In this document: in pieces, positions 19,425 to 35,431 of the stretch
Numbering within the stretch: the stretch's first letter is position 1
Layout of the letters: the number at the start of each line of letters is the position of its first letter
Source: Cognaticolwellia sediminilitoris
Lineage (GTDB): Bacteria > Pseudomonadota > Gammaproteobacteria > Enterobacterales > Alteromonadaceae
NCBI GenBank assembly: GCA_002104535.1
Contig: NBOG01000004.1
Location: 259,453-308,009 of the forward strand
Reading direction: 5' to 3'
DNA length: 48,557 bases
Translations under genes and position numbers: made by a program
The notes under the pieces: generated by a model
The model's database searches: none
Seen by the model: only the letters and a program-made list of their open reading frames with translations
What the model was told of the DNA's origin: nothing

Positions 19425-20114
19425 AATTTACTCTCCGGGTTATAGTCTTGTTATAAGTTAAATTCAGTTACTGGCCTTAAATTTAGTAGAGGCAGTTCTG
19501 AATCTAATTTAGTGTTTATGATAGCCAGTGTTCTAAATAGACTATTACAGGTTAATCACATTTTGTTTACCCCCTTAAAGGGGGAGCAGGTAAAAAACTA
19601 AATTAAGCTATGCTTCACAATATAAATTGGTCGTTTAAAATCACTAAAGAAATCATTGAAATAAACACACCTATGCAAGGGTTTGAATAACAATATTAGT
19701 AAGTTAATTAATTGGTATGAATCACTAGCTTTAGTTTTCGCTCAAAATTACAGCTCAGTAAACGGTGCTTATTTACTTGATACTTTTTATAAGATTACTC
19801 TAATTAAAAAACAGAAGATGATTTGAGAATAAAAGAATTAGCTCAAGAATGACTAGAAGGTTCCGGGTATTAGGATTTTTTTATAAAAAAACGGGGTTAT
19901 CGACGAGATTTGCATCTTATTTCAGCTTGAAGACAAAGCAATTAGATATGGTTTACCCGTTAACAAAAATATCTTGGGCAAGGGCGTAAAATTCACTTGA
20001 ATTGAGTATGTGTTGATGATTTATTTAAGGCTGCAAAGGCTAATTAGACACTATAAATTCAAAAGGTTAACGCATGGATTTAGCTATAAATAGCATTGAG
20101 AATAATCGCCTAAT
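19425..20114. other. 690-bp non-coding stretch
   Basis: Between the start of the TonB receptor gene and the end of the kinase gene, both on the minus strand. Besides site a I find no convincing ORF, hairpin terminator or repeat. Around 19800-20010 the base pattern looks less AT-monotonous and could be a decayed gene, but no reading frame supports it. Confidence 0.35.
19568..19586. promoter_or_regulatory. Putative operator, C-run/G-run palindrome (site a)
   Basis: CCCCCTT-A-AAGGGGG (19570-19584), with TTA before and AGCAGG after. It is centred about 153 bp upstream of the TonB receptor start. It shares TACCCCCT and GGGGAG with sites at 25679, 29561 and 35281. The spacing is one base longer than in two of the others. 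Confidence 0.5.
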
Positions 20115-22982
20115 TTACCATAAGACTTGATCTATCTCATTGAGCAAGCTTTGCGTGTGTTCATTTATTTCTGTGCTTTGGCCATTGCTTTTAATGACTT
20201 TTTCCAATTCAAGTGCACAATGCGATAATGCCGCAAAGCCAAACATTTGGCCAGCCCCAGCGATTCGGTGCGCGAGGTAGGCAAGTTTTTCGAATTCACT
20301 ATTGTTGATGTGTAATATTAAGTCTTGTTGCTCTAAAACCAAGTTAGATTTAAATTCTTCAACTAAGTCTGACATATCAACATCTTGGAAACTCTTCTTT
20401 GCTTTTTCAAGTGAGATGTTGTCGTCATAATATTTAACAATAGTTGGAATAAAAATGTCACGTTCAATTGGCTTCGATAAATGCCCGTTAAAACCAAGTG
20501 ATAAATATTGTGTTATTTCATGTGACATCGCATTGGCGGTTAATGCAATTATGGGCGCTTTACAACCTTTTTGACGCAAAGCTTTAAACGCTTCGATTCC
20601 ATCCATTTCTGGCATTTGAATATCCATTAAAATCAGTGTTGGCTGATGGTTTTCAAATAAAGCGATGGCTTCACGGCCATTTCGTGCGGTTAGCACTTCT
20701 AGACCTAATGAGGCTAACAGTCGAGCGATAAGTCGTCGGTTATCATTATGATCCTCGGCAAGTAACACTTTACCCTGAAGTATTTCCTGCTTTGGCGCAA
20801 TTGACTCAGTGTTAGCAAGCACTTTACTTTCAACACATGCTGCAATTTCATTAGCTTTATATGGCAAAATAAAAGCAAAAACACTGCCTTGATTTAGCTC
20901 ACTTTCGACATCAATTTTACCGCCCATAATTTTAGCTAACTGATCAGATAAACATAAGCCTAGACCTGTACCGCCAAAACGTCTGCTGATACTGCTATCA
21001 CCTTGGGTGAAACACTCAAATAAGTTTTGCAATTGTGAGCTACTCATACCGATACCACTATCGGTTATTTTAAAGACTAAATTGTTTAACTGTTGACTAA
21101 TATTTAATTCAACATGTCCTCTAGGGGTGAATTTAATCGCATTTGCACATAGGTTGATGAGTATTTGCTTGACTCGAAAGCCATCCATATCGATTAAAAA
21201 TGGCTTAGGTAAGCTGTGAATAATATCAAAAGTTAAGCCTTTTGACTTGGCTTGTAAGTTGAACATATTGGCGATTTCTTGCAAAATATCATGTAAATCT
21301 TGAGTTTGTATTTCAAGTTCTATCTTATTCGCTTCTATCTTACTTAAATCAAGAATGTTGTTGGTCAGCTCTAATAAATGCAGGCTATTTCCGTGAATTA
21401 TTTTCACTTCTTTGGTGATAAACTCTTCTTCAACATCGCCGCTTAAAATCGCCTCGGCTTGACCAATTACTGTTGTTAAAGGCGTTCTGATCTCATGACT
21501 CATATTTGCAAGAAACTGACTTTTAATATTGTTAGCATTCTTCAATTCTTGCATCAAATATTCTAGCTCATTAGTGCGTTGTTTAACTTTGGTCTCAAGT
21601 GCTTGTTTAGAGCGTTTTTCTATTAAACGGCGTGACAATAAAAAAGCGATCAATAAGGTAGCTAAAGTTCCTAAAATGATAAAAGTTCGCTGTTGATCCG
21701 CTTGCTCCGTTTCAAGCTCTTGTAGACGTTTCTGTTGTTTGAGCTGTTCGACTTCACGCTTTAATTGCTCTGAATTAAACAAGGCTAATTTGGTGTTAAG
21801 CTGGGTATTTTGTAAGTCGTACTGGGCCTGTAAAAATTCACGCTGGTTCTTAATGGCTTTATATGTTTGCTGTTGGGAAGCATAAATAAGTGACATTAAA
21901 GACAGGTTACTGCTTATACTTTTTGTATATTGCATTTTTATTGCTATATCGTTAGCTTCTTTTACAGAATCTAAAGCCAATTCAAACTTACCTTGATAAA
22001 AATAGGCCTCACCCAAGCTATTTAATGCCCCAACATAAGCCGTGTTATGCTGCTGTTCAATACTTAAACGGATAGCCTCTTGTGCATAAGCTATCGCTTG
22101 TTCACTATCTCCATTTATATTACTTAATTCTGCTAAGTTATGCAGGGTATTTGCTTTTAAATAATCATTATTGTATTTCAATTGTAAATTTAAGGCTTTT
22201 TTTAGATAAATATCAGCCTTTTCATAATCCTTCTGAAATTTGTAAGCTGTGCCTAAGTCACTGTAAGCTGCAGCAAGTCCATGCATATCGCCCATTTTAC
22301 TGCGTTTATCCGCCACGTCATGAAATATCGAAATAGCAATATCGAAGCGTTTAAGCTCTAAGTGAAATGTGCCAATATTATATTTAACGTCGACTTTATC
22401 GACTTCAGTACCATAAATTTGATAGAGCGGTTGTGCCATTTCATAGCTTAATAAAGCAGCTTCTAACTCTGACATCGCGGTTTGAACTAAGGCTATATTA
22501 TTGTATAGGTTAGCTTGAGAGATGGGCTCATCGATGGTTAAATAATAATCTAAGGACTTTTGGTATGAGGCTAATGCTAGTGTTTGATTACCGTTATAAT
22601 AGGCATAAACACCAATGCGTTTATAGGCATCAGCTTCAAGTTGCTGTAGTTGAAATTTATGAGCAAGCTTTAGTTCTAGTTGAGCGGTTTCAATAGCTTT
22701 ATCAAGCTGCCCTAATTGATGAAGAATACGGCTTTTACTGACGAATACTGATATTTTATCTAAGGTGGGTAATGTTTGGTCATTACTGAGCGTCGTGATT
22801 AAATCTAAAGCATGTGATTTATCATCCATTGCATCAATTGCTAAAAGCTGTTGGCCTAAGTTATTGCCTAAAAGTTGTAATTGCTTTAGCGATTCATTTT
22901 GACTATGCGCTGTGAAACTTATGCAAATATTAACAGTTAATAACAATACATTTATGAACAATACTCGTCTGGCAATCGCCAT
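20115..22982 (-). CDS. Hybrid sensor histidine kinase with periplasmic TPR domain, REC and HPt
   Basis: 955 residues from ATG 22982; AAGG sits 8 nt upstream, while the frame's GTG at 23003 lacks a site. Order: signal peptide (about 1-27), seven or so TPR repeats (about 80-380) predicted periplasmic, coiled coil (395-430), one membrane helix (433-452), HisKA with phosphorylated His496 in SHEIRTP, HATPase with N-box Asn614, DSGIGMS and GGTGLGL, receiver domain with phosphoacceptor Asp787 (LMDIQMPEMDG), and C-terminal HPt with His905 (AHRIAGAG). This is a complete phosphorelay in one chain, so a separate response regulator would be the final target; none is adjacent. The TPR input suggests sensing through protein contact. 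Monocistronic. Confidence 0.93.
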   Translation of the reverse strand: MAIARRVLFINVLLLTVNICISFTAHSQNESLKQLQLLGNNLGQQLLAIDAMDDKSHALDLITTLSNDQTLPTLDKISVFVSKSRILHQLGQLDKAIETAQLELKLAHKFQLQQLEADAYKRIGVYAYYNGNQTLALASYQKSLDYYLTIDEPISQANLYNNIALVQTAMSELEAALLSYEMAQPLYQIYGTEVDKVDVKYNIGTFHLELKRFDIAISIFHDVADKRSKMGDMHGLAAAYSDLGTAYKFQKDYEKADIYLKKALNLQLKYNNDYLKANTLHNLAELSNINGDSEQAIAYAQEAIRLSIEQQHNTAYVGALNSLGEAYFYQGKFELALDSVKEANDIAIKMQYTKSISSNLSLMSLIYASQQQTYKAIKNQREFLQAQYDLQNTQLNTKLALFNSEQLKREVEQLKQQKRLQELETEQADQQRTFIILGTLATLLIAFLLSRRLIEKRSKQALETKVKQRTNELEYLMQELKNANNIKSQFLANMSHEIRTPLTTVIGQAEAILSGDVEEEFITKEVKIIHGNSLHLLELTNNILDLSKIEANKIELEIQTQDLHDILQEIANMFNLQAKSKGLTFDIIHSLPKPFLIDMDGFRVKQILINLCANAIKFTPRGHVELNISQQLNNLVFKITDSGIGMSSSQLQNLFECFTQGDSSISRRFGGTGLGLCLSDQLAKIMGGKIDVESELNQGSVFAFILPYKANEIAACVESKVLANTESIAPKQEILQGKVLLAEDHNDNRRLIARLLASLGLEVLTARNGREAIALFENHQPTLILMDIQMPEMDGIEAFKALRQKGCKAPIIALTANAMSHEITQYLSLGFNGHLSKPIERDIFIPTIVKYYDDNISLEKAKKSFQDVDMSDLVEEFKSNLVLEQQDLILHINNSEFEKLAYLAHRIAGAGQMFGFAALSHCALELEKVIKSNGQSTEINEHTQSLLNEIDQVLW

Positions 22983-23355
22983 CCATGACACCTTAAAACA
23001 CACGTGTTTTTTAAAACCAAGTGAAATAATTACATCAATTGGTAAAATATTATGATGAAACTAGTTATAGCACTTTGTCATAAGAGTAACAACGCAAAGC
23101 AACACTGATTTTAAAATCACTCCATTAAGATAGTTTTCTTAGTAAAAACAACAGCTATTGCTCATTATTTAAAACATCAATAAGCAATAATTCTCACTGA
23201 ATAACGTCATCCACTCTGACATAACCTGTTATTATTTTGCTTTAATATAAAAAGACACTCGATACGCTAATCACAATAATACGCTAGTAAAATTAGACTT
23301 AAAAAGCTTATAATCCGCATCTTCTAGCTAATAACTCAAATAATAAAGTATACCC
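22983..23355. other. Intergenic region between kinase and channel genes
   Basis: 373 bp between divergent genes. AT-rich; I see no hairpin, repeat or ORF. It must hold both promoters. Confidence 0.35.
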
Positions 23356-24144
23356 ATGTATCAAAACATAAAAACTACTTTTACCAATCTCAAAAACAAT
23401 AAATTTTTTGAATTAAGTGTCATCTGCGTGATTATCATTTCTGCTCTTGAAATTGGCGCTAAAACCTTTCCTTTATCTAATACGGCTGTCTCAATTACCT
23501 CTGTTTTAGATACTTTTATTACAGTATTTTTCTTATTTGAAATTTCGTTAAGGTTTTTAACTGAAGAAAACAAGAAGAGTTTCTTTAAATCGGGCTGGAA
23601 TGTTTTCGATACTTTAGTGGTGGTTATTAGCCTAGTACCGATTAATGATTCTGAAATGGCACTTTTAGCAAGACTGGTCAGAGTGTTTCGAGTATTACGA
23701 ATGGTGTCTGTGGTACCAGAACTTAGAATACTCATTAACTCACTCGTTAAAGCATTACCGCAATTAGGCTATGTCGTATTGTTAATGTTTATTATTTTCT
23801 ATATTTACGCAGCGATTGGCAGCTTTTTATTTAGTGCCATTAACCCTGTTTTATGGGGCGACATTGCCATTTCGATGCTAACACTGTTTCGCGTAATGAC
23901 TTTCGAAGATTGGACTGATATTCAATACGAGACCATGGACGTTTATCCTTATAGCTGGATTTATTACATGACCTTTATTTTCTTTACCGCCTTTGCGTTT
24001 CTTAATATGGTTATTGGTATTGTGGTTAATGTTATGGAAGAAGAACACTCAAAGGAGAGAAACAAAAATGAACCTACCTTGGGTGAATTAAAGCAGGAAA
24101 TTACTGAATTAAAAACGTTGATCATGAAGCTCAACGATAAATAA
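23356..24144 (+). CDS. Voltage-gated cation channel, BacNav family
   Basis: 262 residues (NaChBac has 274). Six membrane helices: S4 carries Arg106, 109, 112 and 115 at three-residue steps, the voltage-sensor pattern. The pore loop has filter Thr182-Phe-Glu-Asp-Trp-Thr-Asp188, and S6 is followed by an acidic neck and a C-terminal coiled coil (about 243-262) that tetramerises such channels. NaChBac and NavAb use TLESW; Asp at the fourth and seventh filter positions instead matches the engineered calcium channel CavAb (TLDDWSD), so calcium permeation is plausible. Inner membrane; may be linked to motility or pH homeostasis by analogy. Monocistronic with weak Shine-Dalgarno, convergent with the FAD oxidase gene. 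Confidence 0.9.
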   Translation: MYQNIKTTFTNLKNNKFFELSVICVIIISALEIGAKTFPLSNTAVSITSVLDTFITVFFLFEISLRFLTEENKKSFFKSGWNVFDTLVVVISLVPINDSEMALLARLVRVFRVLRMVSVVPELRILINSLVKALPQLGYVVLLMFIIFYIYAAIGSFLFSAINPVLWGDIAISMLTLFRVMTFEDWTDIQYETMDVYPYSWIYYMTFIFFTAFAFLNMVIGIVVNVMEEEHSKERNKNEPTLGELKQEITELKTLIMKLNDK

Positions 24145-24222
24145 AACTATTCAGTTGATAACTAACCGATATATTGAAGTTAGTTATCAACTGTTTGCAG
24201 ATATTGGAGCTACTAAAGTTGT

Positions 24223-25620
24223 TTATGGCTTCAACGGGAAGCCCATTTTATCAACCAGATTTAACCAAGGTATTCTCCAGCCCCCTTTTGCATCACATGT
24301 ATCTAATGCATACATAGTGATTTTTGCACCAATCCATCTAAAGGGTTCAGGTGGTATCCACGCCGGCACTGTTTTAGCAAACTCTAATTGTCGCTCTGGA
24401 ATGTCAGCATTATCTACTATGGCCAACGCAACACGGGCTGCGAATCGACTAGCAGTAACGCCAAAACCAGAATATCCGCCAGCATAAATCATTTTTCCGG
24501 CATGAAAATACTGATAATGTACAGCCATACGCGTGGTTAAAGCTATTGGACCACTCCATGCGTGAGAGATGTTAATGCCTTTTAATCCCGGCAGGGTTTT
24601 ATACAAAGTATTAACTAGTTCGATATAAGGAGCTGCTGTTTTATCATGTTCAGGGTCGGTATTATTATCAAAGAAATAACCCAGGCGACCACCAAACAAA
24701 ACCCGATTATCTTTCGTTAAACGCATATAGTTAAGCTGTGTACGTGTGTCGTATATTCCTTGGCGGTTTTTCCAACCAAGTGCGGTTAATTGCTCTGATG
24801 ACAAAGGCTCGGTCATAACAATACGGTCGCGTATTGCGGCAACTCTTCGGCTAATTTTCTTTTTATGTTTAGTAAAGGCATTGGTGGCTAATATCACTTT
24901 ATTCGCGCTAATATCACCATTTGGTGTTTTAACTACGACCTTGTTGCCAACCGTACTACTATTCAACATTGGCGTATTTTCATAGAAAGTAACACCAAGG
25001 CTTTTCGCTACTTTCTTTAAACCCCAAGCCAATTTAGCAGGGTGAATAGTGCCTGAGCGCTGCTTTGACCACAAGCCACCTTCAAAAAGCGGCGAGTTAA
25101 TTTCTTTTCTGATCTCGTCTTTATTTAGTAAATGAGCATCATGACCAAACTTAACATAAAGTTCGTGTTCGCCATTAATATCAGCTATCCCATGCTTACC
25201 TACAGCAACGGTTAACTCTCCTGTCCATTCGAGATCACAATCAATATTATATTTTTCGATGGTTTGACGAAACTGATCCATGTTTTCTTTACCAAGACGC
25301 TCTAACTCAGGCATTTCGTCGGCAAATAAACGATTAGAGTTTTCCATTCCGTGCATTAAAGACGTCGAAAGAATAGCGCCAGGTCGACCAGATGCACCGA
25401 TAGCGGCAGTATTTGCCTCAATAACGGTGACTTCTCTATCCGGATTTTGTTCTTTTGCTTGTACTGCTGTCCATAGGCCAGTAAAACCGCTACCAACGAT
25501 TAATAAATCGGTGCTGATATTGGTGACGAGTTTATCTTCAGCCGGAGGACAATCAGGGTTGTCTAGCCAAAAAGGGGTGAACTTACTGTTTGTTAATGCT
25601 AACTTCGCTTGATCCTGCAC
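24223..25620 (-). CDS. FAD-dependent amine oxidase, DAO family (PuuB-like)
   Basis: 465 residues. The FAD-binding GxGxxG is Gly43-Ser-Gly45-Phe-Thr-Gly48, and a GYSGFGVT block near residue 400 closes the flavin site as in DAO-fold oxidases. The closest type I can name is E. coli PuuB (gamma-glutamylputrescine oxidase) and related enzymes that oxidise a primary amine to an aldehyde with release of ammonia and hydrogen peroxide. Start is GTG 25620, with GGAG 8 nt upstream. A C-run/G-run element is centred 68 bp upstream. It is encoded just beyond a LuxR-type regulator and a permease-dehydrogenase operon, fitting amine catabolism. Exact substrate unknown. Confidence 0.85.
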   Translation of the reverse strand: MQDQAKLALTNSKFTPFWLDNPDCPPAEDKLVTNISTDLLIVGSGFTGLWTAVQAKEQNPDREVTVIEANTAAIGASGRPGAILSTSLMHGMENSNRLFADEMPELERLGKENMDQFRQTIEKYNIDCDLEWTGELTVAVGKHGIADINGEHELYVKFGHDAHLLNKDEIRKEINSPLFEGGLWSKQRSGTIHPAKLAWGLKKVAKSLGVTFYENTPMLNSSTVGNKVVVKTPNGDISANKVILATNAFTKHKKKISRRVAAIRDRIVMTEPLSSEQLTALGWKNRQGIYDTRTQLNYMRLTKDNRVLFGGRLGYFFDNNTDPEHDKTAAPYIELVNTLYKTLPGLKGINISHAWSGPIALTTRMAVHYQYFHAGKMIYAGGYSGFGVTASRFAARVALAIVDNADIPERQLEFAKTVPAWIPPEPFRWIGAKITMYALDTCDAKGGWRIPWLNLVDKMGFPLKP

Positions 25621-25678
25621 TGTACTAACTCCAACTAATTGTCTTGATAGTACTAAGGTAAACTTATTAAATATTTAC

Positions 25679-25698
25679 GATACCCCCTAAAAGGTATC
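25679..25698. promoter_or_regulatory. Putative operator (site b)
   Basis: GATACC (25679-25684)/GGTATC (25693-25698) perfect arms around CCCTAAAA, reading GATACCCCCTAAAAGGTATC. Centre is 68 bp upstream of the FAD oxidase start codon, in the gap between it and the LuxR-type gene. Confidence 0.6.
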
Positions 25699-25723
25699 TA
25701 CGCCATATTTATACCAACATTTA

Positions 25724-26548
25724 CTACTCTTGGACTGACAAAAGTAAATGATCAACATCTTCTGCTAATGAATCTTGCTGTAAAATATCGATAAAAAGTG
25801 CCAGCAGCTCTGATTGGCTTGAAAGATATGTTTTGCCGTAAATGTTCTTCTTATGCATTTTAACTGTTTCATAGCCAATTTCCATAATTGAGGCTATCGC
25901 CTTGGTTGAATATCCTTGTAGCAATAATTGACACACTTGATATTCTTTTTTCGTTAAAATGTCTCGACCGAAATTAATTAATACATTTTCAACGTTTGAA
26001 TGGCTAGCTTCACCAGTATCGTCAAATATAGTTAAATGCGAATTGCATAACGCTCGCAGAGGTTCGAATAGTTGTAAAAGTTGTTGTTTCTCTTCTGTAT
26101 TAAATTTTTTATTGTCGCCAAACCTAGAGATATCGATATGAAAGCAATTGTCATTATCTTGTGAAAATAAATAACCAACTTCATCGGCAACATTCAAAAA
26201 ATTAAAGTATGAGCTATAACTACTTGAAAACTCGTCTGGAGCAACGTCTTCTAGTGAAAAGAAACCAAAGCGGGCTTTATCGACAAAAGCACGGTAGAAC
26301 GGGTCTAACACGTACAAACGCGTTAAGTATCGCCAAGACTCTTCGCCACAAAGGTTATTTTTATTCCCGTCGATACCGAAGCGATAATATAATTTTGCAT
26401 TTGTAGAGCGATTAAACTGAAGAATGAGCAGTTCGTCAAAATCGATTAATGTGGCCATAACGTCTTTTAGTTTTTCATAAAAATCACTTTTCCCTACGCT
26501 TTGGGTAAGTGAGATCAAAGCCGTACTGTAAAGATTTAACTTCATCAT
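25724..26548 (-). CDS. LuxR-type transcriptional regulator
   Basis: 274 residues. The C-terminal GerE helix-turn-helix spans about 198-255 (LTKKEYQVCQLLLQGYSTK then ETVKMHKKNIYGK). The N-terminal 180 residues look like a GAF-like or ligand-sensing domain; I do not see the acyl-homoserine-lactone signature, nor a receiver domain. ATG 26548 follows GGAA. It sits amid amine-catabolic genes, upstream of the FAD oxidase gene on the same strand, separated by 103 bp carrying operator site b. It is the best candidate to read the four C-run/G-run sites. No such site lies before its own start. Confidence 0.88.
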   Translation of the reverse strand: MMKLNLYSTALISLTQSVGKSDFYEKLKDVMATLIDFDELLILQFNRSTNAKLYYRFGIDGNKNNLCGEESWRYLTRLYVLDPFYRAFVDKARFGFFSLEDVAPDEFSSSYSSYFNFLNVADEVGYLFSQDNDNCFHIDISRFGDNKKFNTEEKQQLLQLFEPLRALCNSHLTIFDDTGEASHSNVENVLINFGRDILTKKEYQVCQLLLQGYSTKAIASIMEIGYETVKMHKKNIYGKTYLSSQSELLALFIDILQQDSLAEDVDHLLLSVQE

Positions 26549-26610
26549 GTGTTTAATTCCGACATCGGTATTACGCTAATACTTACATATATTTACTGAT
26601 TTTAAAACAC

Positions 26611-26642
26611 GAAAAAACAGTGACTTTAAAAAGTCACTGTTT
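26611..26642 (-). terminator. Terminator of the aldehyde dehydrogenase-permease operon
   Basis: 13-bp perfect stem AAACAGTGACTTT (26615-26627)/AAAGTCACTGTTT (26630-26642), two-base loop. On the minus strand the stem ends in a run of T. It isolates the operon from the LuxR-type gene downstream. Confidence 0.85.
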
Positions 26643-26678
26643 AGTAATTATTAAATTAATTAAAATTAACGAAATTGG

Positions 26679-28070
26679 CTACTTAATTGCTTTTACTCCA
26701 CGGTATGCGACTAACTCGCCTAAAATAATTACCGATAATGCTCCCCATAGTACTTCCCAAACAACACCTTGGCCTGGGACATAAATAAAGAGTGTAATGG
26801 TTACAAGTAAAATTGCAGCACATAAATAGGCGAATACTTTGACGACTTTTGGACTACCAGGAAACCTAAAGTGACCATCATCTGCAATTCGTCCATTTAT
26901 ACCGATGTGTGACTGACGAATTTTTATAAATGCTGTACACACAGCCACGTATGGCAACATAAATATAACGCCGCTAAAAGCGAATAATGACCAAAATAAG
27001 TCTTCATTACTTCCTGCCAAAAATCCGTAAAGCATCAATAATATAGAGGCTGATATCCCCAATAAAATGGAAGCACCAATTGGCGTACCATGCTTTGATT
27101 CTATTGCAAAAAATGCCGGCAGTTCTTTATCTATTGCCGCTTCTGCAGCTGCTCGATTCGCCCCCATTGCCCAAGTAGCACCATTTGAAAAAAAGGTATA
27201 TAAAGCGCCAACACCTAATAACATAACGAAACCATCGCCGAGCGGAGTGCCACCAAAAAATCGCCCAAGAGTGTCCATCAAACCATCAACGACATCAATT
27301 TTTTCAGCTGGTTGAGCAATCAAAATTGCAAAAGTTGATAGAATATATGCCCCAACGACGACCGCGATTGATGAGAAAACTGCTTTAGGTAAATCTTTTC
27401 GCGGATTTTTCATTTCAGCACTACTGGCACTGGCTAGCTCGAAACCTAACATGCCATAAACAATTGCAGGTAAATATTGCAAACTAAAACCACCATTCTC
27501 CGTAGTCGGCAGCATAGTAGCCAAAGTAAATTCGTTCGCTATGCCATTGTTCATCCCGTAAGTGATACCGCCAATGATAAGCACTGAAAAAATAATTAAC
27601 TTAAAGACAGCACCAATGTTAGGTATCCACTTTCCGATATTTAATGCTACGACATTAACAAAAACTACCACCCAGATGAGTACTTGCCCGAGAATTATTT
27701 GCGCGCTTAAAGACATCTCTGGGAAAAATATTTGTGAAAATATGCCGGCAAACAATATAAATATTGCAGGGATCCAAACCGCCACATTGGCCCAATAATA
27801 CCAGCTAATACGCGAAGCCATTTTTTGGCCATACGCTCGTTTTACCCAGGCATAAATACCACCCTGCTCAGGGTAAACGGAACCTAGTTCAGTGCAAATA
27901 GCACCAAATGGTAACAAGAAGAGTATCGTTAAAACTATCCACCAAAATATAGCTGTGGGGCCCATAACAGCCCCTGCAGCTAAAGTATCTAATAATAAAA
28001 CGGCAGACACACAAAATAGAAAAATATCTCTTTTGCCCAATGTTTTTTCATGCACATGTTTTGCGGTCAT
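26679..28070 (-). CDS. APC-family amino acid/polyamine permease
   Basis: 463 residues with about 12 membrane helices. The family glycine-rich first helix (LDTLAAGAVMGPTAIFWW region) and a FGAICTELGSVYPEQGG block match the glutamate:GABA antiporter/putrescine importer branch of the APC superfamily. It starts 9 bp after the aldehyde dehydrogenase stop with AAGAGA as ribosome-binding site, so the two are cotranscribed from the promoter carrying site c. Likely substrate is the amine or amino acid used by the cluster (inference). A strong terminator follows. Confidence 0.88.
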   Translation of the reverse strand: MTAKHVHEKTLGKRDIFLFCVSAVLLLDTLAAGAVMGPTAIFWWIVLTILFLLPFGAICTELGSVYPEQGGIYAWVKRAYGQKMASRISWYYWANVAVWIPAIFILFAGIFSQIFFPEMSLSAQIILGQVLIWVVVFVNVVALNIGKWIPNIGAVFKLIIFSVLIIGGITYGMNNGIANEFTLATMLPTTENGGFSLQYLPAIVYGMLGFELASASSAEMKNPRKDLPKAVFSSIAVVVGAYILSTFAILIAQPAEKIDVVDGLMDTLGRFFGGTPLGDGFVMLLGVGALYTFFSNGATWAMGANRAAAEAAIDKELPAFFAIESKHGTPIGASILLGISASILLMLYGFLAGSNEDLFWSLFAFSGVIFMLPYVAVCTAFIKIRQSHIGINGRIADDGHFRFPGSPKVVKVFAYLCAAILLVTITLFIYVPGQGVVWEVLWGALSVIILGELVAYRGVKAIK

Positions 28071-28079
28071 AATTTTCTC

Positions 28080-29501
28080 TTACTCTATGATAAAAGCCTG
28101 TACTTCAATAAATTCGCGTAATCCTTCAACGCCCCACTCTCGACCATTTCCTGACTGTTTAAAGCCACCAAATGGAGCATGAGTATTGAAATATGCGCCT
28201 TGAATGTAACATTGCCCAGCGCGAATTTTTTGGGCAATTTTTAGTGCTGAATTTGTGTCTTCTGCAAATACGCCAGAAGACAAACCAAACACTGTATCAT
28301 TGGCAATTTCTATCGCTTCATCGATTTCGATATAAGGTATGATGCAAAGAACAGGACCAAAAATTTCTTCTTGGGCAATGGTCATATCATTAGTCACATT
28401 AGCAAAAATAGTTGGCATAACATAAGCCCCTGCTTGTAAGTCAGCAGGTAAATCTACCCCACCTGTCACAACAGTTGCTCCTTCTTTTATACCGATATTG
28501 ATATAATCTAACACTCTTTTTTGCTGTAAAGCTGAACTCAATGGCCCCATAGTGACGTTTGAACTTTTAGGGTCGCCGACAACATTTTCTTCCGCAACGC
28601 TCTTGGCAATTTCAATCGCTTGTTGATAACAGCTTTGTGGCACTAACATTCGAGTTAGCGCGCTACAAGTTTGGCCTGAGTTGAGCATAACATCTTCAAC
28701 GCCATAGCGGACTGCTGCAGCTAAATCTGCTCCTTCAGTAATAATGTAAGGTGATTTACCGCCAAGCTCTTGGCAAACCCTTTTAACACTTCCTGCTGCC
28801 GACTGTGCAACTTTTATACCCGCGGCTGTTGAGCCGGTAAATGAGACCATATCGACATCTGGATGTGAACATAAATGCTCGCCAATTTCACTTCCAATAC
28901 CAGTTATAACATTAAAAACACCGGCAGGCGCCGCCACTTTATGAAAAATTTCTGCCAAAATTAAATCTTGCAGTGGTGTTTGCTCTGCAGGTTTTGCCAC
29001 TACAGTACAGCCCGTTGCTAACGCCGGCCCTAGTTTTCCAACTAACTGAGATAAAGGATAATTCCAAGGGTTAATTAATACACAAACTCCCACGGGAGCA
29101 TGTCCTTGTATGACGCCATTTTCTGTTGACGTTTGCTCCACATAGCCAGTTAACTCTGCAAAGGCTCTAAACGAATCAATCGCACCTTGAACTTGAATAT
29201 CTTGAGATATATGTTTTGGGCAACCCATGGTGATCGAAATGGCATCAGTAAAGTCATCCCGTCTGTTTTCCATTTCATCAGCAATAGCGTTAATCAATTG
29301 GCTACGTTGTGCAGCAGTGGTTAAAGACCATGCCGTAAACGCCGATTTAGCGGCTAAAACTGCGGCATCTACATCAGCAAAATTCGCACTCACTGATTCT
29401 GCACACAACTCACCATTTGCTGGATTAATAACAGCAATAGTTTCTGCGCTATTAGGCGATTGCCATTGACCATTGATATAAAGCTGATGATATTTAACCA
29501 T
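28080..29501 (-). CDS. NAD(P)-dependent aldehyde dehydrogenase
   Basis: 473 residues. Catalytic Cys279 (NSGQTCSAL), general base Glu245 (CQELGGKSP), oxyanion Asn144 in NPWNYPL and the cofactor block FTGSTAAG (221-228) are all present. Substrate in this context is probably an aminoaldehyde such as 4-aminobutyraldehyde or 4-guanidinobutyraldehyde, giving GABA or 4-guanidinobutyrate. I chose ATG 29501 (MVKYHQLYING) because AGG lies upstream and the family begins there; the frame opens ten codons earlier. First gene of an operon with the permease. Site c is centred 69 bp upstream. Confidence 0.92.
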   Translation of the reverse strand: MVKYHQLYINGQWQSPNSAETIAVINPANGELCAESVSANFADVDAAVLAAKSAFTAWSLTTAAQRSQLINAIADEMENRRDDFTDAISITMGCPKHISQDIQVQGAIDSFRAFAELTGYVEQTSTENGVIQGHAPVGVCVLINPWNYPLSQLVGKLGPALATGCTVVAKPAEQTPLQDLILAEIFHKVAAPAGVFNVITGIGSEIGEHLCSHPDVDMVSFTGSTAAGIKVAQSAAGSVKRVCQELGGKSPYIITEGADLAAAVRYGVEDVMLNSGQTCSALTRMLVPQSCYQQAIEIAKSVAEENVVGDPKSSNVTMGPLSSALQQKRVLDYINIGIKEGATVVTGGVDLPADLQAGAYVMPTIFANVTNDMTIAQEEIFGPVLCIIPYIEIDEAIEIANDTVFGLSSGVFAEDTNSALKIAQKIRAGQCYIQGAYFNTHAPFGGFKQSGNGREWGVEGLREFIEVQAFIIE

Positions 29502-29560
29502 GTTGTAAACCTGTAATTTAATTATGAGCACTAAGACTATGTTAGCCTAAGCAATAAAAG

Positions 29561-29578
29561 TACCCCCTATTGGGGAGA
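29561..29578. promoter_or_regulatory. Putative operator (site c)
   Basis: TACCCCCTATTGGGGAGA: CCCC (29564-29567) and GGGG (29572-29575) around TATT. Centred 69 bp upstream of the aldehyde dehydrogenase ATG, the same distance as site b from its gene. Confidence 0.6.
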
Positions 29579-29649
29579 CCTGCGGAATTACTGACTTTAA
29601 CAATAACAATCTAAGGGCAATTCGGCCCCGATTTGCGCTTTGATATACG

Positions 29650-31005
29650 TCAATTATTACCATTTATTTTCTTTTTAACTCGGCGGCTGAACAACCAAAT
29701 ACTGGCTAAAACCATTGGCATCATTATGGCAATAACAACCGACTTATTTATCGTCACATTAACGCTATGTAGGGCATCTAACAAATAATCGCAAAGCGCG
29801 AGCACGTAAAAAGTCATGACAACAACTGATAGACTTTCAACTGTTTGCTGTAAGTTAAATTGCATTTGTGCCCTGCGATCCATGGATTGCAACAAAGCTT
29901 GATTTTGCGCTTCAATCGCCATATCGATGCGAGTCCGTAAAAAATCACTGGCGCGGTCTACCCTACTCGATAAATCGTCTAACCTTCGCTTTGCTGCCAA
30001 TACGGTTCGATATGCAGGCGATAATCTTCGATCAACAAAAGCACTAAAAGTTTGCAGCTCATCAATTTCACGCTCCTGTAATTCAGCAAAGCGACTTTTA
30101 ACCATTTGATAATACGCGCTACCGGCATCAAAACGATAACGAGAGGACGCAATTAATTCAGCTATATCTGCGGCCATTTCCGAGAGTTGAGCTAACTGCT
30201 CTTTCTCCTCAGATGAAGATTTAATATCTTTTTGCTTTTTAAGTAAGTTAGCTAACTGTGATTCCATCGAACTGACTTTAACACTCACCTTTTGTGCCAA
30301 AGGAAAAGCTAATAATGTCATATTTCGATACGCCTCTATTTCAAGCAACGCTCTTAAAACTCGGCCACTTTGGCACTCATTTAAACTTGAATTTACTAAT
30401 AGAATCCGATTGAAATTATCGTTATGTAGCCGCAATGCGCTCAACATTGTTGCTTCACCATTATGCAAATCGGAGCCCATTAAGCGCTGGCCTTCGAAAT
30501 ACTGGCGCAGTGTATCTCTATCGAGCTCTATGCTATCGGCATTTAAGGCATCAATGTGAACTGCCGCAATGATTTCGCCGGGGATCATTTCAAGCCAATC
30601 AACAGGTACTATGGCTATTGGTGGACATTCGAACGGACTTGGTCCGCTATCATGTATTAAAAAAGTATAACTGCTGAATTCGGTGTGGCGCTCCCATCTG
30701 ATTTCATAGTCACCCACTTTTTGATAAAAGCATGAAGCGCCATCAACTGGCGGATTTACACTATAACGAGAACATAAGGCTTTTAAATGCAATAGTTCAT
30801 CGAACTGACTAGAATCTTTTTGATGCAAAAAACATAGCTGCGAAACCCTTAACGGTACTTTAGAAACAGAAAAAGGCCGAGCATGTAAATCAGCATAGTT
30901 TTGACTAAAATAATGGTGCTTAGTCAATTGGCTATAAAAGTTGGATGGTGATGGTAAAGGACTATTTACTATAGAGTTTCCCAACGTTTTCTTCTCTAAA
31001 ATCAC
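29650..31005 (-). CDS. DUF3422 membrane protein
   Basis: 451 residues. The N-terminal half is soluble with conserved ARPF and RWERHTEFSSYTF blocks; a long helical, probably coiled-coil region follows (about 250-390), then two C-terminal membrane helices (about 396-415 and 422-440) and a basic tail. This layout is that of DUF3422, whose role is unknown. Its GTG start overlaps the aminotransferase stop by 4 bp (GTGA), so translation is coupled to that gene. That coupling suggests a role in the same amine metabolism. An alternative start a few codons further is possible but would lose the overlap. Confidence 0.85.
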   Translation of the reverse strand: MILEKKTLGNSIVNSPLPSPSNFYSQLTKHHYFSQNYADLHARPFSVSKVPLRVSQLCFLHQKDSSQFDELLHLKALCSRYSVNPPVDGASCFYQKVGDYEIRWERHTEFSSYTFLIHDSGPSPFECPPIAIVPVDWLEMIPGEIIAAVHIDALNADSIELDRDTLRQYFEGQRLMGSDLHNGEATMLSALRLHNDNFNRILLVNSSLNECQSGRVLRALLEIEAYRNMTLLAFPLAQKVSVKVSSMESQLANLLKKQKDIKSSSEEKEQLAQLSEMAADIAELIASSRYRFDAGSAYYQMVKSRFAELQEREIDELQTFSAFVDRRLSPAYRTVLAAKRRLDDLSSRVDRASDFLRTRIDMAIEAQNQALLQSMDRRAQMQFNLQQTVESLSVVVMTFYVLALCDYLLDALHSVNVTINKSVVIAIMMPMVLASIWLFSRRVKKKINGNN

Positions 31006-32354
31006 TTGACGAAAAGTCCTTCGCGGGTAACAAAATCTAAGGTTTGGTCTAATGACTTTTCTAGTTTTTCGATCAATTCGTCTATATGCGCTTCAGTTAC
31101 TATTAGTGGTGGACAAAAAGCTAATGATGAACCCGCCACTGTTCTTATAATTAAGCCAATGTTCTGACAAGCTTGCATAGCAAAAATTCCAACAGCCGGA
31201 GTGGTAAAGGCTAAACCTGTCTGTTTATTTGCGACAAGCTCTATCGCTGCAATCAGGCCTTTGCCGCGAACTTCACCGACTAATGGATGTACAGAAAGTG
31301 CCTGTAAACGTTTTTGTAAATATGCGCCCACTATTGCGGCATGTTGAAAAATATTATCGCGTTGATATATCTCTAAAGTTTTTAAAGCGACAGCGCAACC
31401 CAATGGGTGTCCAGAATAAGTATAGCCGTGACCAAAGACTCCAACTTTGTTACTTGGTTCAATCATAGCTTCATACATGTCACCACGAATAATTGAGGCA
31501 CTTATAGGCACGTAACCAGAGGATAGCTGTTTTGCGAAGGTCATCATGTCGGGATTAGAAATCCCCATCGTTGTTGAACCAAAGTCATTACCGGTTCTGC
31601 CAAAGCCCGTGATCACTTCATCGGCCCAAAATAAAATATTATATTTTTGCAACACAGCTTGCACTTTCTGGTAATAACCGTCTGGCGGAACGATAACACC
31701 ACTTGCCCCGGTGATTGGCTCTGCGATAAAGGCGGCAATTGTGTCAGGACCTTCACGTAAAATTAATTGCTCTAAATTATTAACAATACGATCAACAAAC
31801 ATTTGCTCTGATTCATTGTCTATTGCTTGACGATAATAATGTGGAGCATCCGTGCGCAATACACCAAGGGCTTCAAAAGGCAGATCAAAATGTTGATGAT
31901 TAGGGGGTAAGCCGGTTAGTGATGCAGCAGCGACAGTAACGCCATGATATGAGCGTTCACGAGCAATTATTTTATATTTCTCTGGTTTCCCAATTGCATT
32001 AAAGTAATAACGCAGCATTTTGATATGACTATCATTGGCGTCACTGCCTGAATTACCAAAAAATACTTTAGCGTTATCTACCGGTACCATCGCTGTCAGC
32101 TTTTCGGCGAGATCAATACCCACTTGGTGGCTTTTTCCACCAAACATATGAGAATAAGAAAGTTGACCCATTTGTTGGTTAGCGGTTGCGATTAATTCTC
32201 TATTATTATATCCCAACGATGTACACCATAGTCCCGCCAACCCTTCCAAATACTGCTTGCCTTTGTTGTCATAAACATAGGCACCTTCACCACGGGATAA
32301 AATCAGTGTTTCGGTTTGTGTTAAGTTTGTTGTTGGGTAAATTATTTGGCTCAT
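31002..32354 (-). CDS. Class III PLP-dependent aminotransferase (SpuC-like)
   Basis: 450 residues. PLP-binding Lys275 (TFAKQLSSG), Asp245 in WADEVITG, and the FFGNSGSDAND block are all present. Class III enzymes of this subtype include putrescine-pyruvate (SpuC) and omega-amino acid aminotransferases; the amino donor here may be putrescine, agmatine, cadaverine or GABA, which cannot be separated by eye. It is coupled to DUF3422 through a 4-bp overlap. A strong minus-strand terminator hairpin lies at 32440-32500, 85 bp before the start codon, suggesting attenuation or an upstream small RNA. No C-run/G-run site lies upstream. Confidence 0.92.
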   Translation of the reverse strand: MSQIIYPTTNLTQTETLILSRGEGAYVYDNKGKQYLEGLAGLWCTSLGYNNRELIATANQQMGQLSYSHMFGGKSHQVGIDLAEKLTAMVPVDNAKVFFGNSGSDANDSHIKMLRYYFNAIGKPEKYKIIARERSYHGVTVAAASLTGLPPNHQHFDLPFEALGVLRTDAPHYYRQAIDNESEQMFVDRIVNNLEQLILREGPDTIAAFIAEPITGASGVIVPPDGYYQKVQAVLQKYNILFWADEVITGFGRTGNDFGSTTMGISNPDMMTFAKQLSSGYVPISASIIRGDMYEAMIEPSNKVGVFGHGYTYSGHPLGCAVALKTLEIYQRDNIFQHAAIVGAYLQKRLQALSVHPLVGEVRGKGLIAAIELVANKQTGLAFTTPAVGIFAMQACQNIGLIIRTVAGSSLAFCPPLIVTEAHIDELIEKLEKSLDQTLDFVTREGLFVK

Positions 32355-32868
32355 CGTTTTTTATTTCCAAAATTAATTGCACGCAAGGGCATCAACGAAT
32401 ATCAACTGCATAAAAAACATTAGTTAATATTATCTAAATAAAAAAAACCTAACCCGCTGAGAACGTTATCCAAAGGAGTTTAATAAAATTGCGGGTTAGG
32501 CTAAGGAAACACTACTTAATACGGTTTAAGGTGGTTTATTAATTTACAAACGCTTTAACGGTATTGCCGTGTCAGTCGCTTTTAACAATAAGCTCACCAG
32601 TCATCTGAAGTGCTATTGAATATTAAAACTCTCTCATTTTAAATACAAAACATTCAACCTTATGTTTTAGGCGTGTAAAACTTATAATAAAAATTATGAT
32701 GTTAGGCTTAAGCTACCAAGTTACTGAACTAATACTTTGGGAAAATTTAGGAGGCCGAAAATAATAATTAACGCTTTATTAGCTTATAAACGCTATATTT
32801 TTAATGGTTATACAGATAAGATTATCAGGTGATATTTACTCATTATTATTGAAGTATTAAGGAAAAAT
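32355..32868. other. 514-bp gap between divergent aminotransferase and cytochrome genes
   Basis: Holds the terminator hairpin above and a small ACGG/CCGT hairpin near 32558-32571. No ORF of note. I looked for a known riboswitch pattern (glycine, guanidine) on the minus strand and could not match one. Confidence 0.4.
32440..32500 (-). terminator. Terminator hairpin in or before the aminotransferase leader
   Basis: 10-bp perfect stem (CCTAACCCGC 32448-32457 / GCGGGTTAGG 32491-32500), 33-nt loop, followed on the minus strand by eight T (32440-32447). There is no minus-strand gene between it and 33351, so it either attenuates the aminotransferase-DUF3422 transcript or ends a small RNA. Confidence 0.7.
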
Positions 32869-33339
32869 ATGAATTATTTGACGAAAGTGATTTTGACCGC
32901 CTCTGCGATTATTACTGCAACGTCAGTGTTAGCTGAAGGTGCAAAATCTTTAGATCATGCTGAAAAAGCCACAGACAACCGCAAAGCAGTATTTAGCCTG
33001 CTAGGTTCTAATATGGGCCCTTTAGGTGCTATGGCTAAAGGAAAAATACCTTTAGATGCTAAAGTAGTAGAAAAAAACGCTTTAAGAATTAATCAATTAT
33101 CAATGATGATTGCTGATTATACCAAAACCGATACTTCTGCTTTTAAAGTAAAAACAGCCGCGTTAGATAAAATTTGGCAGCAACCAGAAGCGTTTACTAA
33201 ACGTATCAATGCTTTAAGCAAAGCTTCAGCACACTTACAAGTTGCCGCTAAATCAGGTGATGAATCTGAAATTAAAAAAGCAATTTCAGGTGTTGGTAAA
33301 TCATGTGGCGGTTGCCATGATGATTTCAAAGCTGATTAA
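32869..33339 (+). CDS. Cytochrome c' / c556-type monoheme cytochrome
   Basis: 156 residues. Signal peptide (1-22, ending VLAEG region) directs it to the periplasm. The single haem site is Cys146-Gly-Gly-Cys149-His150 at the extreme C-terminus, the mark of the four-helix class II cytochromes c. Residues 27-140 are predicted helical. AAGGA precedes the ATG. It is convergent, 11 bp away, with a cytochrome b561-type gene, a common functional pair in electron transfer. Whether it takes electrons from amine oxidation is unknown. Confidence 0.9.
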   Translation: MNYLTKVILTASAIITATSVLAEGAKSLDHAEKATDNRKAVFSLLGSNMGPLGAMAKGKIPLDAKVVEKNALRINQLSMMIADYTKTDTSAFKVKTAALDKIWQQPEAFTKRINALSKASAHLQVAAKSGDESEIKKAISGVGKSCGGCHDDFKAD

Positions 33340-33350
33340 TAAGACACTAT

Positions 33351-34034
33351 TTAATAATAGTACTCTTCAATAACAGGGGCGTTTATTACCACTAACCAAT
33401 AAACAAAACCTGCAACTGCAAATGATAACAAGATAGCTAGGCCAATTTTTGAATGGCTGATGCTATCTTTTTTATTTACTTCATTAGATGATTTCTTGCC
33501 CGTGATCATAGCTGAAATCAACGCCTGCTTCTTCACTCCAACATAATAAGCAATGGCAATAATGTGCAATGCTACCGCGCCTAAAATAAGATTAAAGCCA
33601 TTACGATGAATAAATATAAATATTGCTTCTAATTCGCTACTAACACTACTGTTATATGGACCGTAGGTGAATATATCGTCATTCATAAATAGGCCACTAA
33701 TCGCTTGTATTAAGACGGTAGATAACATAAAAAACACCATCAAACTGCCTAAAGGATTATGGCCTGGATATTTTAATGCTTTTTCTTGATTAAAGGCCTT
33801 TATATACAAAGCCACTTTGCTCAAGCTTGGAATGAAATTAATAAATTTTGAATGGGTGCTACCAAAAAATCCCCACAATATTCTGAAGATTATTAGTCCT
33901 AGAGTAAAATATCCCACCAATAAGTGATATTCAATATAGCCATTATCTTGATTTGATGTATACCAAGAAGCACTAATACTCAAAACTAGTAGCCAATGAA
34001 AAAGGCGTAGAGGTAAATCCCAGATTAAATGCAT
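33351..34034 (-). CDS. Cytochrome b561-type di-haem membrane protein
   Basis: 227 residues from ATG 34034 (MHLIWDLPLRLFHW), which matches the usual family start; the frame opens at 34103 but those extra residues are poorly family-like. Four main helices plus a C-terminal helix. Conserved His in RLFHW, in a HLLVGY helix, and in later helices (FIHRNGFN, ALHIIAI) are candidate haem ligands, as in the Ni-hydrogenase b-type/b561 family. Likely passes electrons between quinol and a periplasmic c-type cytochrome such as its convergent neighbour (inference). A C-terminal hydrophobic helix (about 200-218) follows a Ser/Lys-rich linker. Confidence 0.85.
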   Translation of the reverse strand: MHLIWDLPLRLFHWLLVLSISASWYTSNQDNGYIEYHLLVGYFTLGLIIFRILWGFFGSTHSKFINFIPSLSKVALYIKAFNQEKALKYPGHNPLGSLMVFFMLSTVLIQAISGLFMNDDIFTYGPYNSSVSSELEAIFIFIHRNGFNLILGAVALHIIAIAYYVGVKKQALISAMITGKKSSNEVNKKDSISHSKIGLAILLSFAVAGFVYWLVVINAPVIEEYYY

Positions 34035-34170
34035 ACGTTCGCTGTTAATTTTTATATTTTGTCTAAATATTATATCAACAATGATGAAAATTGAGCAGAG
34101 CAAAATTGTTATATTTTGTCACTTCTATCGCACTTTAACACAGCCTATATTTTTGCTTTTAAAGCATGGC

Positions 34171-34217
34171 AAACCTAGCGAGCGTTTATACACATAAATG
34201 TTCGCTAGGTTTTTATA
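34171..34217. terminator. Long terminator hairpin after the ureohydrolase gene
   Basis: 19-bp stem with two G-U pairs: AAACCTAGCGA-GCGTTTAT (34171-34189) / ATAAATGT-TCGCTAGGTTT (34194-34212), ACAC loop. It lies 15 bp past the ureohydrolase stop. The T run is better on the plus strand (34208-34216) than on the minus. Confidence 0.75.
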
Positions 34218-34226
34218 CCCGTTTAC

Positions 34227-35180
34227 TTACCTTCGCACGCAACCAGGGAAGCTACAAAGCATTTCAAAGATAAGGTTTGCAGCTAATAAAGAGGTATTGC
34301 CGGAAGTATCATATGGCGGAGAAACTTCAACGAGATCGGCACCGACTAGATTGGTTCCATACATACCACGAATAATTTCTAATGCTTGTGATGAAGTTAA
34401 ACCTGCCGGTTCTGGTGTACCGGTTCCTGGAGCATATGCTGGGTCAATACCATCGATATCAAAAGTTAAGTAAGTTGGCATATCATTGCCAATCAATTCT
34501 CGCACTTCTGCCATCAACGGCTCTAATGATTTAAACCAGCATTCCTCGGCTTGTACTACTCTGACACCACGGTCAACGGCCCATTGAAAATCATCTGAAC
34601 TGTAACCTGTTGCACGTTGACCAATTTGTACCATTTTTTTAGGGTCAACTAAGCCCTCTTCAATCGCGCGTCTGAAAATAGTGCCATGACACTCTTTTTC
34701 ACCAAACATAGAATCATTTATGTCGGCATGTGCATCAATATGTACTAAAGCCATCTTTCCATGCTTTTTATATAAAGCCCTAAGTATTGGTAGAGTTATC
34801 GTATGATCGCCACCAACAGTCATGGTCTTTATATCGCAGGCCATGACTTGATCAAAATGTGCTTCAATTATTTTTATAGATTCAGCTAAATTAAAAGTAT
34901 TAATAGCAACATCACCAATATCTGCAATTTGGAAACTGTCAAAGGGAGCGGCTTGTGTATACATCCCATATGGACGAACCAAAACAGACTCATTTCGAAC
35001 TGAACGTGGTCCAAATCGTGTACCACTGCGGTTACTGGCGCCTATATCGAGAGGGACGCCTATTATGCCAATATCTAAGGTGTCAGTTAATTCGCTACTA
35101 GGTAAACGAAACATTGTTCCTGGGCCAGCAAAACGTGGCATTTCATTACCACCTAACGGCTGATTAAACTCTTTACTCAT
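34227..35180 (-). CDS. gbuA: Agmatinase-family ureohydrolase, closest to 4-guanidinobutyrase
   Basis: 317 residues from ATG 35180; AAGGTGAG lies 5 nt upstream (the frame opens one codon earlier at GTG). Binuclear manganese motifs are GGDHT, HIDAHADIND and DIDGIDPAYAPG. The N-terminal QPLGGNEMPRFAG, the VPLDIGASNRSGTRFGPR block and the VEVSPPYDTSGNTS end closely match Pseudomonas GbuA as I recall it, better than E. coli SpeB. It would hydrolyse 4-guanidinobutyrate to GABA and urea; agmatine to putrescine remains an alternative. Alone on its transcript, with site d centred 110 bp upstream and a strong terminator behind. Confidence 0.88.
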   Translation of the reverse strand: MSKEFNQPLGGNEMPRFAGPGTMFRLPSSELTDTLDIGIIGVPLDIGASNRSGTRFGPRSVRNESVLVRPYGMYTQAAPFDSFQIADIGDVAINTFNLAESIKIIEAHFDQVMACDIKTMTVGGDHTITLPILRALYKKHGKMALVHIDAHADINDSMFGEKECHGTIFRRAIEEGLVDPKKMVQIGQRATGYSSDDFQWAVDRGVRVVQAEECWFKSLEPLMAEVRELIGNDMPTYLTFDIDGIDPAYAPGTGTPEPAGLTSSQALEIIRGMYGTNLVGADLVEVSPPYDTSGNTSLLAANLIFEMLCSFPGCVRR

Positions 35181-35280
35181 CACATCTCACCTTATGAAAT
35201 ATTTTACTTAATTTGTGCTTCTGTAACAGTATTACAAAATACGTTTAACTACTAATGTAACAGCCTTACCCTAGCTTGTT

Positions 35281-35300
35281 TATTCCCCATACGGGGAGTA
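35281..35300. promoter_or_regulatory. Putative operator (site d)
   Basis: TATTCCCCATACGGGGAGTA: CCCC (35285-35288) and GGGG (35293-35296) around ATAC, with T/A symmetry extending outward. Centred 110 bp upstream of the ureohydrolase start. It is over 500 bp from the NSS transporter on the other side. Confidence 0.55.
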
Positions 35301-35355: not shown

Positions 35356-35380
35356 TGTAGGGGCGACTTCAGTCGCCGTA
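35356..35380. repeat. REP hairpin, family 3
   Basis: TGTAGG foot then GGCGACT (35362-35368)-TC-AGTCGCC (35371-35377). Same layout as families 1 and 2 with a different stem. Confidence 0.75.
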
Positions 35381-35431
35381 GTACCAAACTTACATATAAG
35401 ATCCTAAAAAATCGTCAATCACAATAATGTC

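Follow-up and report, generated by a model that had tools for sequence, protein, structure and literature searches.

Palindromes upstream of four amine-cluster genes in Cognaticolwellia sediminilitoris are likely operators of a VqsR-like LuxR-type regulator

Introduction

In a stretch of 48,557 nucleotides from Cognaticolwellia sediminilitoris (contig NBOG01000004.1, here called the window), four palindromes built of a C-run and a G-run lie upstream of genes for a TonB-dependent receptor, an FAD-dependent oxidase, an aldehyde dehydrogenase (ALDH) and a ureohydrolase. Which protein would act at these elements, and what would it control? The initial annotation had proposed an operator of an amine-utilisation regulon and had named the LuxR-type gene inside the cluster as the candidate binder. 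From the comparison of sequences we consider it likely that the four elements are operators of this LuxR-type regulator, which would activate a small amine/guanidino regulon. The finding is sound and most of the earlier interpretation stands. What is new is the regulon; the regulator belongs to a known type, and the system as a whole is not of a new kind.

The palindromes and their frequency

Direct reading confirmed all four elements, each 5′ of a different gene and all of them in gaps 5′ of minus-strand genes (Table 1). Read toward the genes, their common part is a promoter-proximal GGGGGTA (GGGGAATA in site 4) opposite a half that is C-rich or reads TACC. The initial annotation had described the palindrome as TACCCCCT followed by GGGGAG or a weakened form of it. 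Each of these two halves is present in three of the four sites and neither in all, and the core is better written as a 7-2-7 palindrome of the NarL type. Equal distances of 68 and 69 bp from two start codons had been pointed out as well. They hold in the window, where 68.5 bp separate the site centre from the oxidase GTG (25620) and likewise from the ALDH ATG (29501), but they are not conserved: in five Colwellia records the distance from site to oxidase start is 110-178 bp, so the equal spacing looks accidental.

Scores come from a matrix for half-sites which we put together by hand from those of orthologous loci. Sites 1, 2 and 3 take the first three ranks in the window (17.3, 15.74 and 15.3), above the best score found in 12 Markov-simulated windows (14.93), and site 4 is the weakest of the four, with rank 5 and a score of 12.93. 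A score of 14 or more is reached nowhere else in the window, and at that threshold the absence of similar elements elsewhere in the window is borne out.

In the whole genome (3.84 Mb) the pattern CCCCN{3,6}GGGGGTA matches twice, at sites 1 and 3, and CCCCN{3,5}GGGGAG in three places, namely site 3, site 4 and C3:83183; the control, reversed in the case of the first pattern, gave no match for either. Jointly these are four distinct places (sites 1, 3, 4 and C3:83183), all confined to two clusters that each contain a LuxR-type gene of their own; one is that of the window, the other a putrescine (puu) cluster. A count in 117 further genomes of the family gave 105 matches of the first pattern compared to 242 of its reversed control; being rarer than the control, this sequence is not favoured in general. 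The motif frequency thus speaks for the proposed regulon. Site 2 matches neither pattern. A third pattern that fits it, TACCN{3,7}GGGGTA, was dropped as a signal, being unspecific with 15 matches versus 10 for the control in the window's genome.

Conservation at orthologous promoters

Scanning genome contigs with the LuxR protein yielded seven loci. Six of them hold the LuxR-oxidase core, five from Colwellia (L001-L004 and L006) and one from Psychromonas marina (L005), with LuxR proteins 60-71% identical to that of the window and an oxidase which in L006 is 84% identical. The seventh (L007) was rejected as an orthologue, its LuxR match comprising only 36% identity over 47 residues. As had been expected of a true operator, the sites are kept at the orthologous ALDH and oxidase promoters. 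All six oxidase promoters bear one (TACCTTTTAGGGGGTA in L001-L003 and L006, TACCTCTTAGGGGGTA in L004, CATTCCCCCATTTAGGGGGTA in L005), which means that site 2 is kept in six relatives. ALDH promoters have sites in five of the six records (TACTCCCCTAAAGGGGGTA in L001-L004, CACTCCCCGTTAGGGGGTA in L005); in L006 a DUF3422 homologue and not an ALDH precedes the permease. At the ureohydrolase promoter a good site is present in L005 (AGCTCCCCACCTTTGGGGGTA; enzyme 88% identical).

The pattern CCCCN{3,6}GGGGGTA was also counted in seven distinct genomes, the six with orthologues and that of the window; G358 and G396 gave identical matches and were counted once. It was detected 12 times, with nine matches within the LuxR cluster, and its reversed control four times. 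The genome of L006 (G397) has no match to it. Three matches outside the clusters lie in L040, L043 and L046.

The regulator and its relatives

GerE (PF00196) is the sole Pfam domain of the window's LuxR-type protein at E<=1e-5. A receiver match was not found, nor at this threshold the Pfam autoinducer-binding domain by which a receptor of acyl-homoserine lactones (AHL) is recognised. The N-terminal part shares its domain with the ligand-binding domain of VqsR from Pseudomonas aeruginosa (5xhx) by profile (2e-25), by single sequence (5.1e-8) and by fold (TM-scores 0.83 and 0.78 by target length; model pLDDT 85.6), at a low identity of 19-22% in the structural alignment; AHL receptors such as SdiA and RhlR are weaker fold matches. 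The C-terminal GerE part aligns with NarL (1je8). With a VqsR-type ligand-binding domain and GerE the protein belongs to the VqsR-like LuxR regulators. The operator of VqsR itself is reportedly TCGCC-N8-GGCGA, which differs from the window sites in length and letters.

This protein gains support as the candidate binder from a paralogous cluster, and also from distant relatives near whose genes sites of this type recur. The window's genome has a second LuxR gene (C3:87.2-88.1 kb), the product of which is 30% identical to the window LuxR over 241 columns. It is accompanied by genes for enzymes resembling gamma-glutamylputrescine synthetase (puuA) and gamma-glutamyl-GABA hydrolase (puuD), and further by an aldehyde dehydrogenase, an aminotransferase, a permease and another TonB receptor. 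The gap between permease and TonB receptor contains TACCCCTAAAGGGGAGTA and TAACCCCTATAGGGGTA, the two top scores in 19.9 kb. Genome G052 encodes a LuxR protein 47% identical to this paralog; there, TACCCCCTAGGGGTA is located 5′ of a third TonB receptor (L022:15004) and TACCCCATAGGGGTA between a DAO-family gene and a GFA-MFS gene pair. An MFS gene of G040, 70% identical to that of G052, has a site upstream as well, and sites were also detected in G054, G061 and G092.

Loci L018-L023 were picked solely for their LuxR relative. They contain five matches scoring at least 14, three in gaps (L022, L023) and two inside genes, with gaps making up 15% of the DNA. Together with the window and L016, which was known beforehand to hold a match, eight of ten such matches are in gaps. 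The matrix scan over the loci gave 26 matches, 12 of which stem from the matrix-source loci (L001-L006) and four from loci chosen by pattern (L054-L057); 24 of the 26 are intergenic, and that at L021:10535 is inside luxR. In L022 and L023 the relatives of the paralog lie near genes for CrtO-like oxidoreductases and MatE transporters, in L023 also near a GcvT/TMAO (trimethylamine N-oxide)-demethylase-like gene.

A draw across the phylum revealed a relative at E<=1e-35 in 27 of 398 genomes. Some genomes carry four to five copies of this LuxR regulator type (G451, G455, G533). On a Shinella plasmid, the genes for a relative (31% identical) and for a glutamine synthetase flank a gap with TATCCCCGGGGGGATA, and on a Halomonas plasmid TACCCCAATGGGGATA is situated between an M20 peptidase/ALDH pair and an aminotransferase, with a gene of the peptidyl-arginine deiminase family nearby. 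After these two sites had been seen, motifs were counted in 28 luxR loci of the phylum-wide draw, including second copies from two genomes and excluding L092, the paralog of the window's genome. The common core is a NarL-type 7-2-7 palindrome, TAYCCCn-N2-nGGGRTA; in this form site 2 reads TACCTTT-TA-GGGGGTA.

The exact form TAYCC-N6-GGRTA occurs three times in the 28 loci, compared to a simulated mean of 0.067, and seven other spacings gave one match altogether. Two of the exact sites are upstream of luxR and one (L072) is downstream, in the gap before the next gene. When 9 of 10 letters had to agree at spacing 2, eight matches were found up to 350 bp upstream of luxR, three up to 350 bp downstream and four inside the gene, but none in the remaining 63 kb of the loci. 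These 15 matches, 11 of them within 350 bp of luxR, are spread over 10 of the 28 loci, and spacing 2 has the top upstream count among 12 spacings tried. The link between the VqsR-like LuxR type and the 7-2-7 palindrome observed here is a statistical one. Neighbours in five marked loci include a glutamine synthetase (L095), solute-binding proteins (L098, L099), a TRAP transporter (L096) and a GH3 enzyme (L097); with the latter two among them, the amine context is frequent and not universal. The L090 site falls inside two overlapping predicted open reading frames (L096).

Promoter architecture and proposed mechanism

Elements resembling a -10 hexamer were judged by eye. At all four sites TAGT follows the proximal half, 23 (site 1), 25 (site 2), 21 (site 3) and 26 nt (site 4) downstream, and it is kept at four of five orthologous ALDH and five of six orthologous oxidase promoters. 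If TAGT ends a -10 hexamer, the site centres come to lie near -40 to -47. NarL activation sites of the 7-2-7 type are placed at -40 to -49 (napF) and -38 to -47 (yeaR) in the available portion of PMC4549865, and by this correspondence a class II-like activator is the likeliest reading.

We infer the following mechanism, and the inference covers binding, the choice of activation over repression, the -10 assignments and the inducer. A GerE dimer would bind the NarL-type inverted repeat TAYCCCn-N2-nGGGRTA, with spacing variants allowed. The operators would overlap the -35 region of weak promoters or lie immediately 5′ of it, with a centre at about -40 to -47. Once the VqsR-like N-terminal domain is occupied by a pathway intermediate, the regulator would switch on genes for the uptake (TonB receptor, permease) and the breakdown (FAD oxidase, ALDH, guanidinobutyrase) of an amine or guanidino compound. 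This compound is probably agmatine or 4-guanidinobutyrate. These two compounds are suggested as inducers because of the enzymes encoded.

Conversely, the LuxR protein might be a repressor which is released from the sites by amine inducers. Positions near -35 are compatible with repression; however, site centres near -40 to -47 together with a non-consensus -10-like element fit an activator, like those of napF and yeaR in the same portion of PMC4549865, and we regard a repressor as unlikely.

The resemblance to NarL raises the question whether a two-component response regulator of the NarL/NarP type binds the sites instead of the local LuxR protein. NarL binds inverted heptamers 2 bases apart, and an engineered 7-2-7 site, as the accessible part of PMC4549865 gives it, is TACCCCTAAAGGGGTA; the family-wide core is like it in the spacing of 2 and in TACCCCT-like halves. 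The half-sites are similar to the heptamer TACYYMT, as quoted in an excerpt of PMC4886647. Two such heptamers 2 bp apart are nearly matched by site 2, whereas sites 1, 3 and 4 are spaced wider. Moreover, at E<=1e-10 the NarP model has 12 matches in the genome, of which five are nearly full-length, and the hybrid histidine kinase in the cluster (Table 1) also favours a two-component system. However, none of these matches exceeds the NarP cut-off (NF007708), the best one reaching 140.2 of 343 bits, and the sites go with the LuxR gene across genera and classes. The window regulator also differs from NarL/NarP in the missing receiver match, and the linked genes belong to amine catabolism and not to nitrate. 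A response regulator at these sites is therefore quite improbable in our view.

That the palindromes are RNA hairpins, i.e. attenuators or terminators, and not DNA operators, is very improbable. In folding compared with shuffled sequences, site 4 (z -3.05) and site 2 (z -1.97) do better than most, but site 3 (z -1.53) and site 1 (z -0.46) are less remarkable. None of the window sites is followed by a T-run in the gene direction, all of them lie upstream of the -10-like element, and the L005 oxidase site has a change in one arm without a matching change in the other. Hardly credible is a metal or formaldehyde repressor of the CsoR/RcnR/FrmR type: although TACCCCCTAGGGGTA, the site at the TonB receptor of G052, is identical to Streptomyces lividans CsoR operators in the part of PMC3902906 at hand, the genes linked to the palindromes are mostly amine genes, no PF02583 match was found in the window's genome, G052, G040, G392, G396 and G397 (it is present in three of nine searched, G393-G395), and a gene of this family would have to be missing from an assembly whose completeness is given as 100.

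Several points weigh against operators of the local LuxR protein. The patterns and the matrix were written after the window sites had been seen, and the score of site 4 was reached in five of 12 simulations, which alone is not above chance. A rigid dimer is not expected to tolerate site lengths that vary between 16 and 21 bp, as those in the window do. The ureohydrolase promoters of L001-L004 bear only the weak CACCCTCTTTTGGGTA, and TAGT is missing at all five orthologous ureohydrolase promoters and at the ALDH and oxidase promoters of L005. In nine relatives no orthologue of the TonB receptor that site 1 precedes was found at E<=1e-100, which takes site 1 out of the check by conservation. Relatives at 37-42% identity (L018-L021) have no convincing gap site. 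In the phylum-wide counts, 18 of the 28 loci lack a 7-2-7 palindrome agreeing in 9 of 10 letters at 350 bp or less from luxR, and other spacings also show some excess near the gene, for example five upstream matches at spacing 1.

Known systems and significance

The proposal of a 4-guanidinobutyrase-like enzyme proved well founded, and here the cluster recalls the gbuA locus of P. aeruginosa: the solved protein closest to the window ureohydrolase is guanidinobutyrase 3nio (481 bits, 1.7e-143), compared to 199 to 202 bits for agmatinases. In P. aeruginosa, gbuA is governed by the LysR-type regulator GbuR; the local regulator of the window is of the LuxR type instead. PjeR and PolR, LuxR solos of subgroup E in fluorescent Pseudomonas, are encoded next to polyamine transport genes and are thought to sense ligands other than AHL, with promoters that were unresponsive to putrescine, spermidine and spermine, as far as the available text of PMC8546723 goes; an operator is not described there. 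They are like the window protein in being of the LuxR type.

What was unexpected is that a VqsR-like sensor is repeatedly linked to a NarL-like operator, and often beside amine genes. The finding offers a candidate regulator, an operator and a list of targets, including an outer-membrane receptor, for the use of guanidino compounds and amines in these bacteria. Such a set was not among the matches listed in literature searches, which is a weak negative. Since the VqsR-type ligand-binding domain is tied to amine-type neighbourhoods in several lineages, ligands to try for this sensor fold are at hand. Tentatively, and with more doubt than confidence, we suggest that VqsR-type LuxR regulators might ancestrally sense polyamine and guanidino-compound catabolism, as a Pseudomonadota-wide family with one NarL-like 7-2-7 operator and an intermediate sensed via the VqsR fold. 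If true, VqsR itself would be a derived member of this family.

Neighbouring genes and further elements

The features of the window are listed in Table 1. The class III aminotransferase of the cluster has no upstream site scoring at least 14 in the matrix scan.

Table 1. Palindromic sites, genes and further elements of the window.
Feature	Position	Strand	Remarks
Site 1	19568-19586	minus	direct read, TACCCCCTTAAAGGGGGAG; minus strand GCTCCCCCTTTAAGGGGGTA; 5′ of TonB-dependent receptor
Site 2	25679-25698	minus	direct read, GATACCCCCTAAAAGGTATC; minus strand GATACCTTTTAGGGGGTATC; 5′ of FAD oxidase
Site 3	29561-29578	minus	direct read, TACCCCCTATTGGGGAGA; minus strand GTCTCCCCAATAGGGGGTAC; 5′ of ALDH-permease unit
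Site 4	35281-35300	minus	direct read, TATTCCCCATACGGGGAGTA; minus strand TACTCCCCGTATGGGGAATA; 5′ of ureohydrolase
TonB-dependent receptor	17130-19424	minus	proposed target
FAD-dependent amine/amino acid oxidoreductase type protein	24223-25620	minus	proposed target
LuxR-type regulator, 274 aa	25724-26548	minus	VqsR-like N-terminal domain and GerE helix-turn-helix; proposed binder
APC-type amino acid/amine permease	26679-28070	minus	second gene of proposed ALDH unit
Aldehyde dehydrogenase	28080-29531	minus	proposed target; by alignment, the ATG at 29501 is the likely start
Ureohydrolase (arginase family)	34227-35183	minus	proposed target
Class III aminotransferase	31002-32354	minus	gene of the cluster
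Hybrid histidine kinase	20115-23003		TPR repeats, receiver and Hpt domains; between TonB receptor and oxidase
Ion-transport protein	23356-24144		voltage-gated channel type, PF00520; within amine cluster
Terminator-like hairpin with T-run	26610-26643	minus	between permease and luxR
DUF3422 gene and class III aminotransferase gene	29650-32354		overlapping genes
Inverted repeat	35356-35384		around GGCGACTTCAGTCGCC; near site 4
Sodium:neurotransmitter symporter-family gene	35816-37153		about 525 bp away on the other side of site 4

Hairpins that resemble the one between permease and luxR are visible by eye in L001, L005 and L006. In Colwellia chukchiensis, too, a DUF3422 gene belongs to the cluster (L006:6800-8143, 76% identical). 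The inverted repeat near site 4 is possibly a dispersed repeat, and the symporter-family gene beyond it could use site 4 too.

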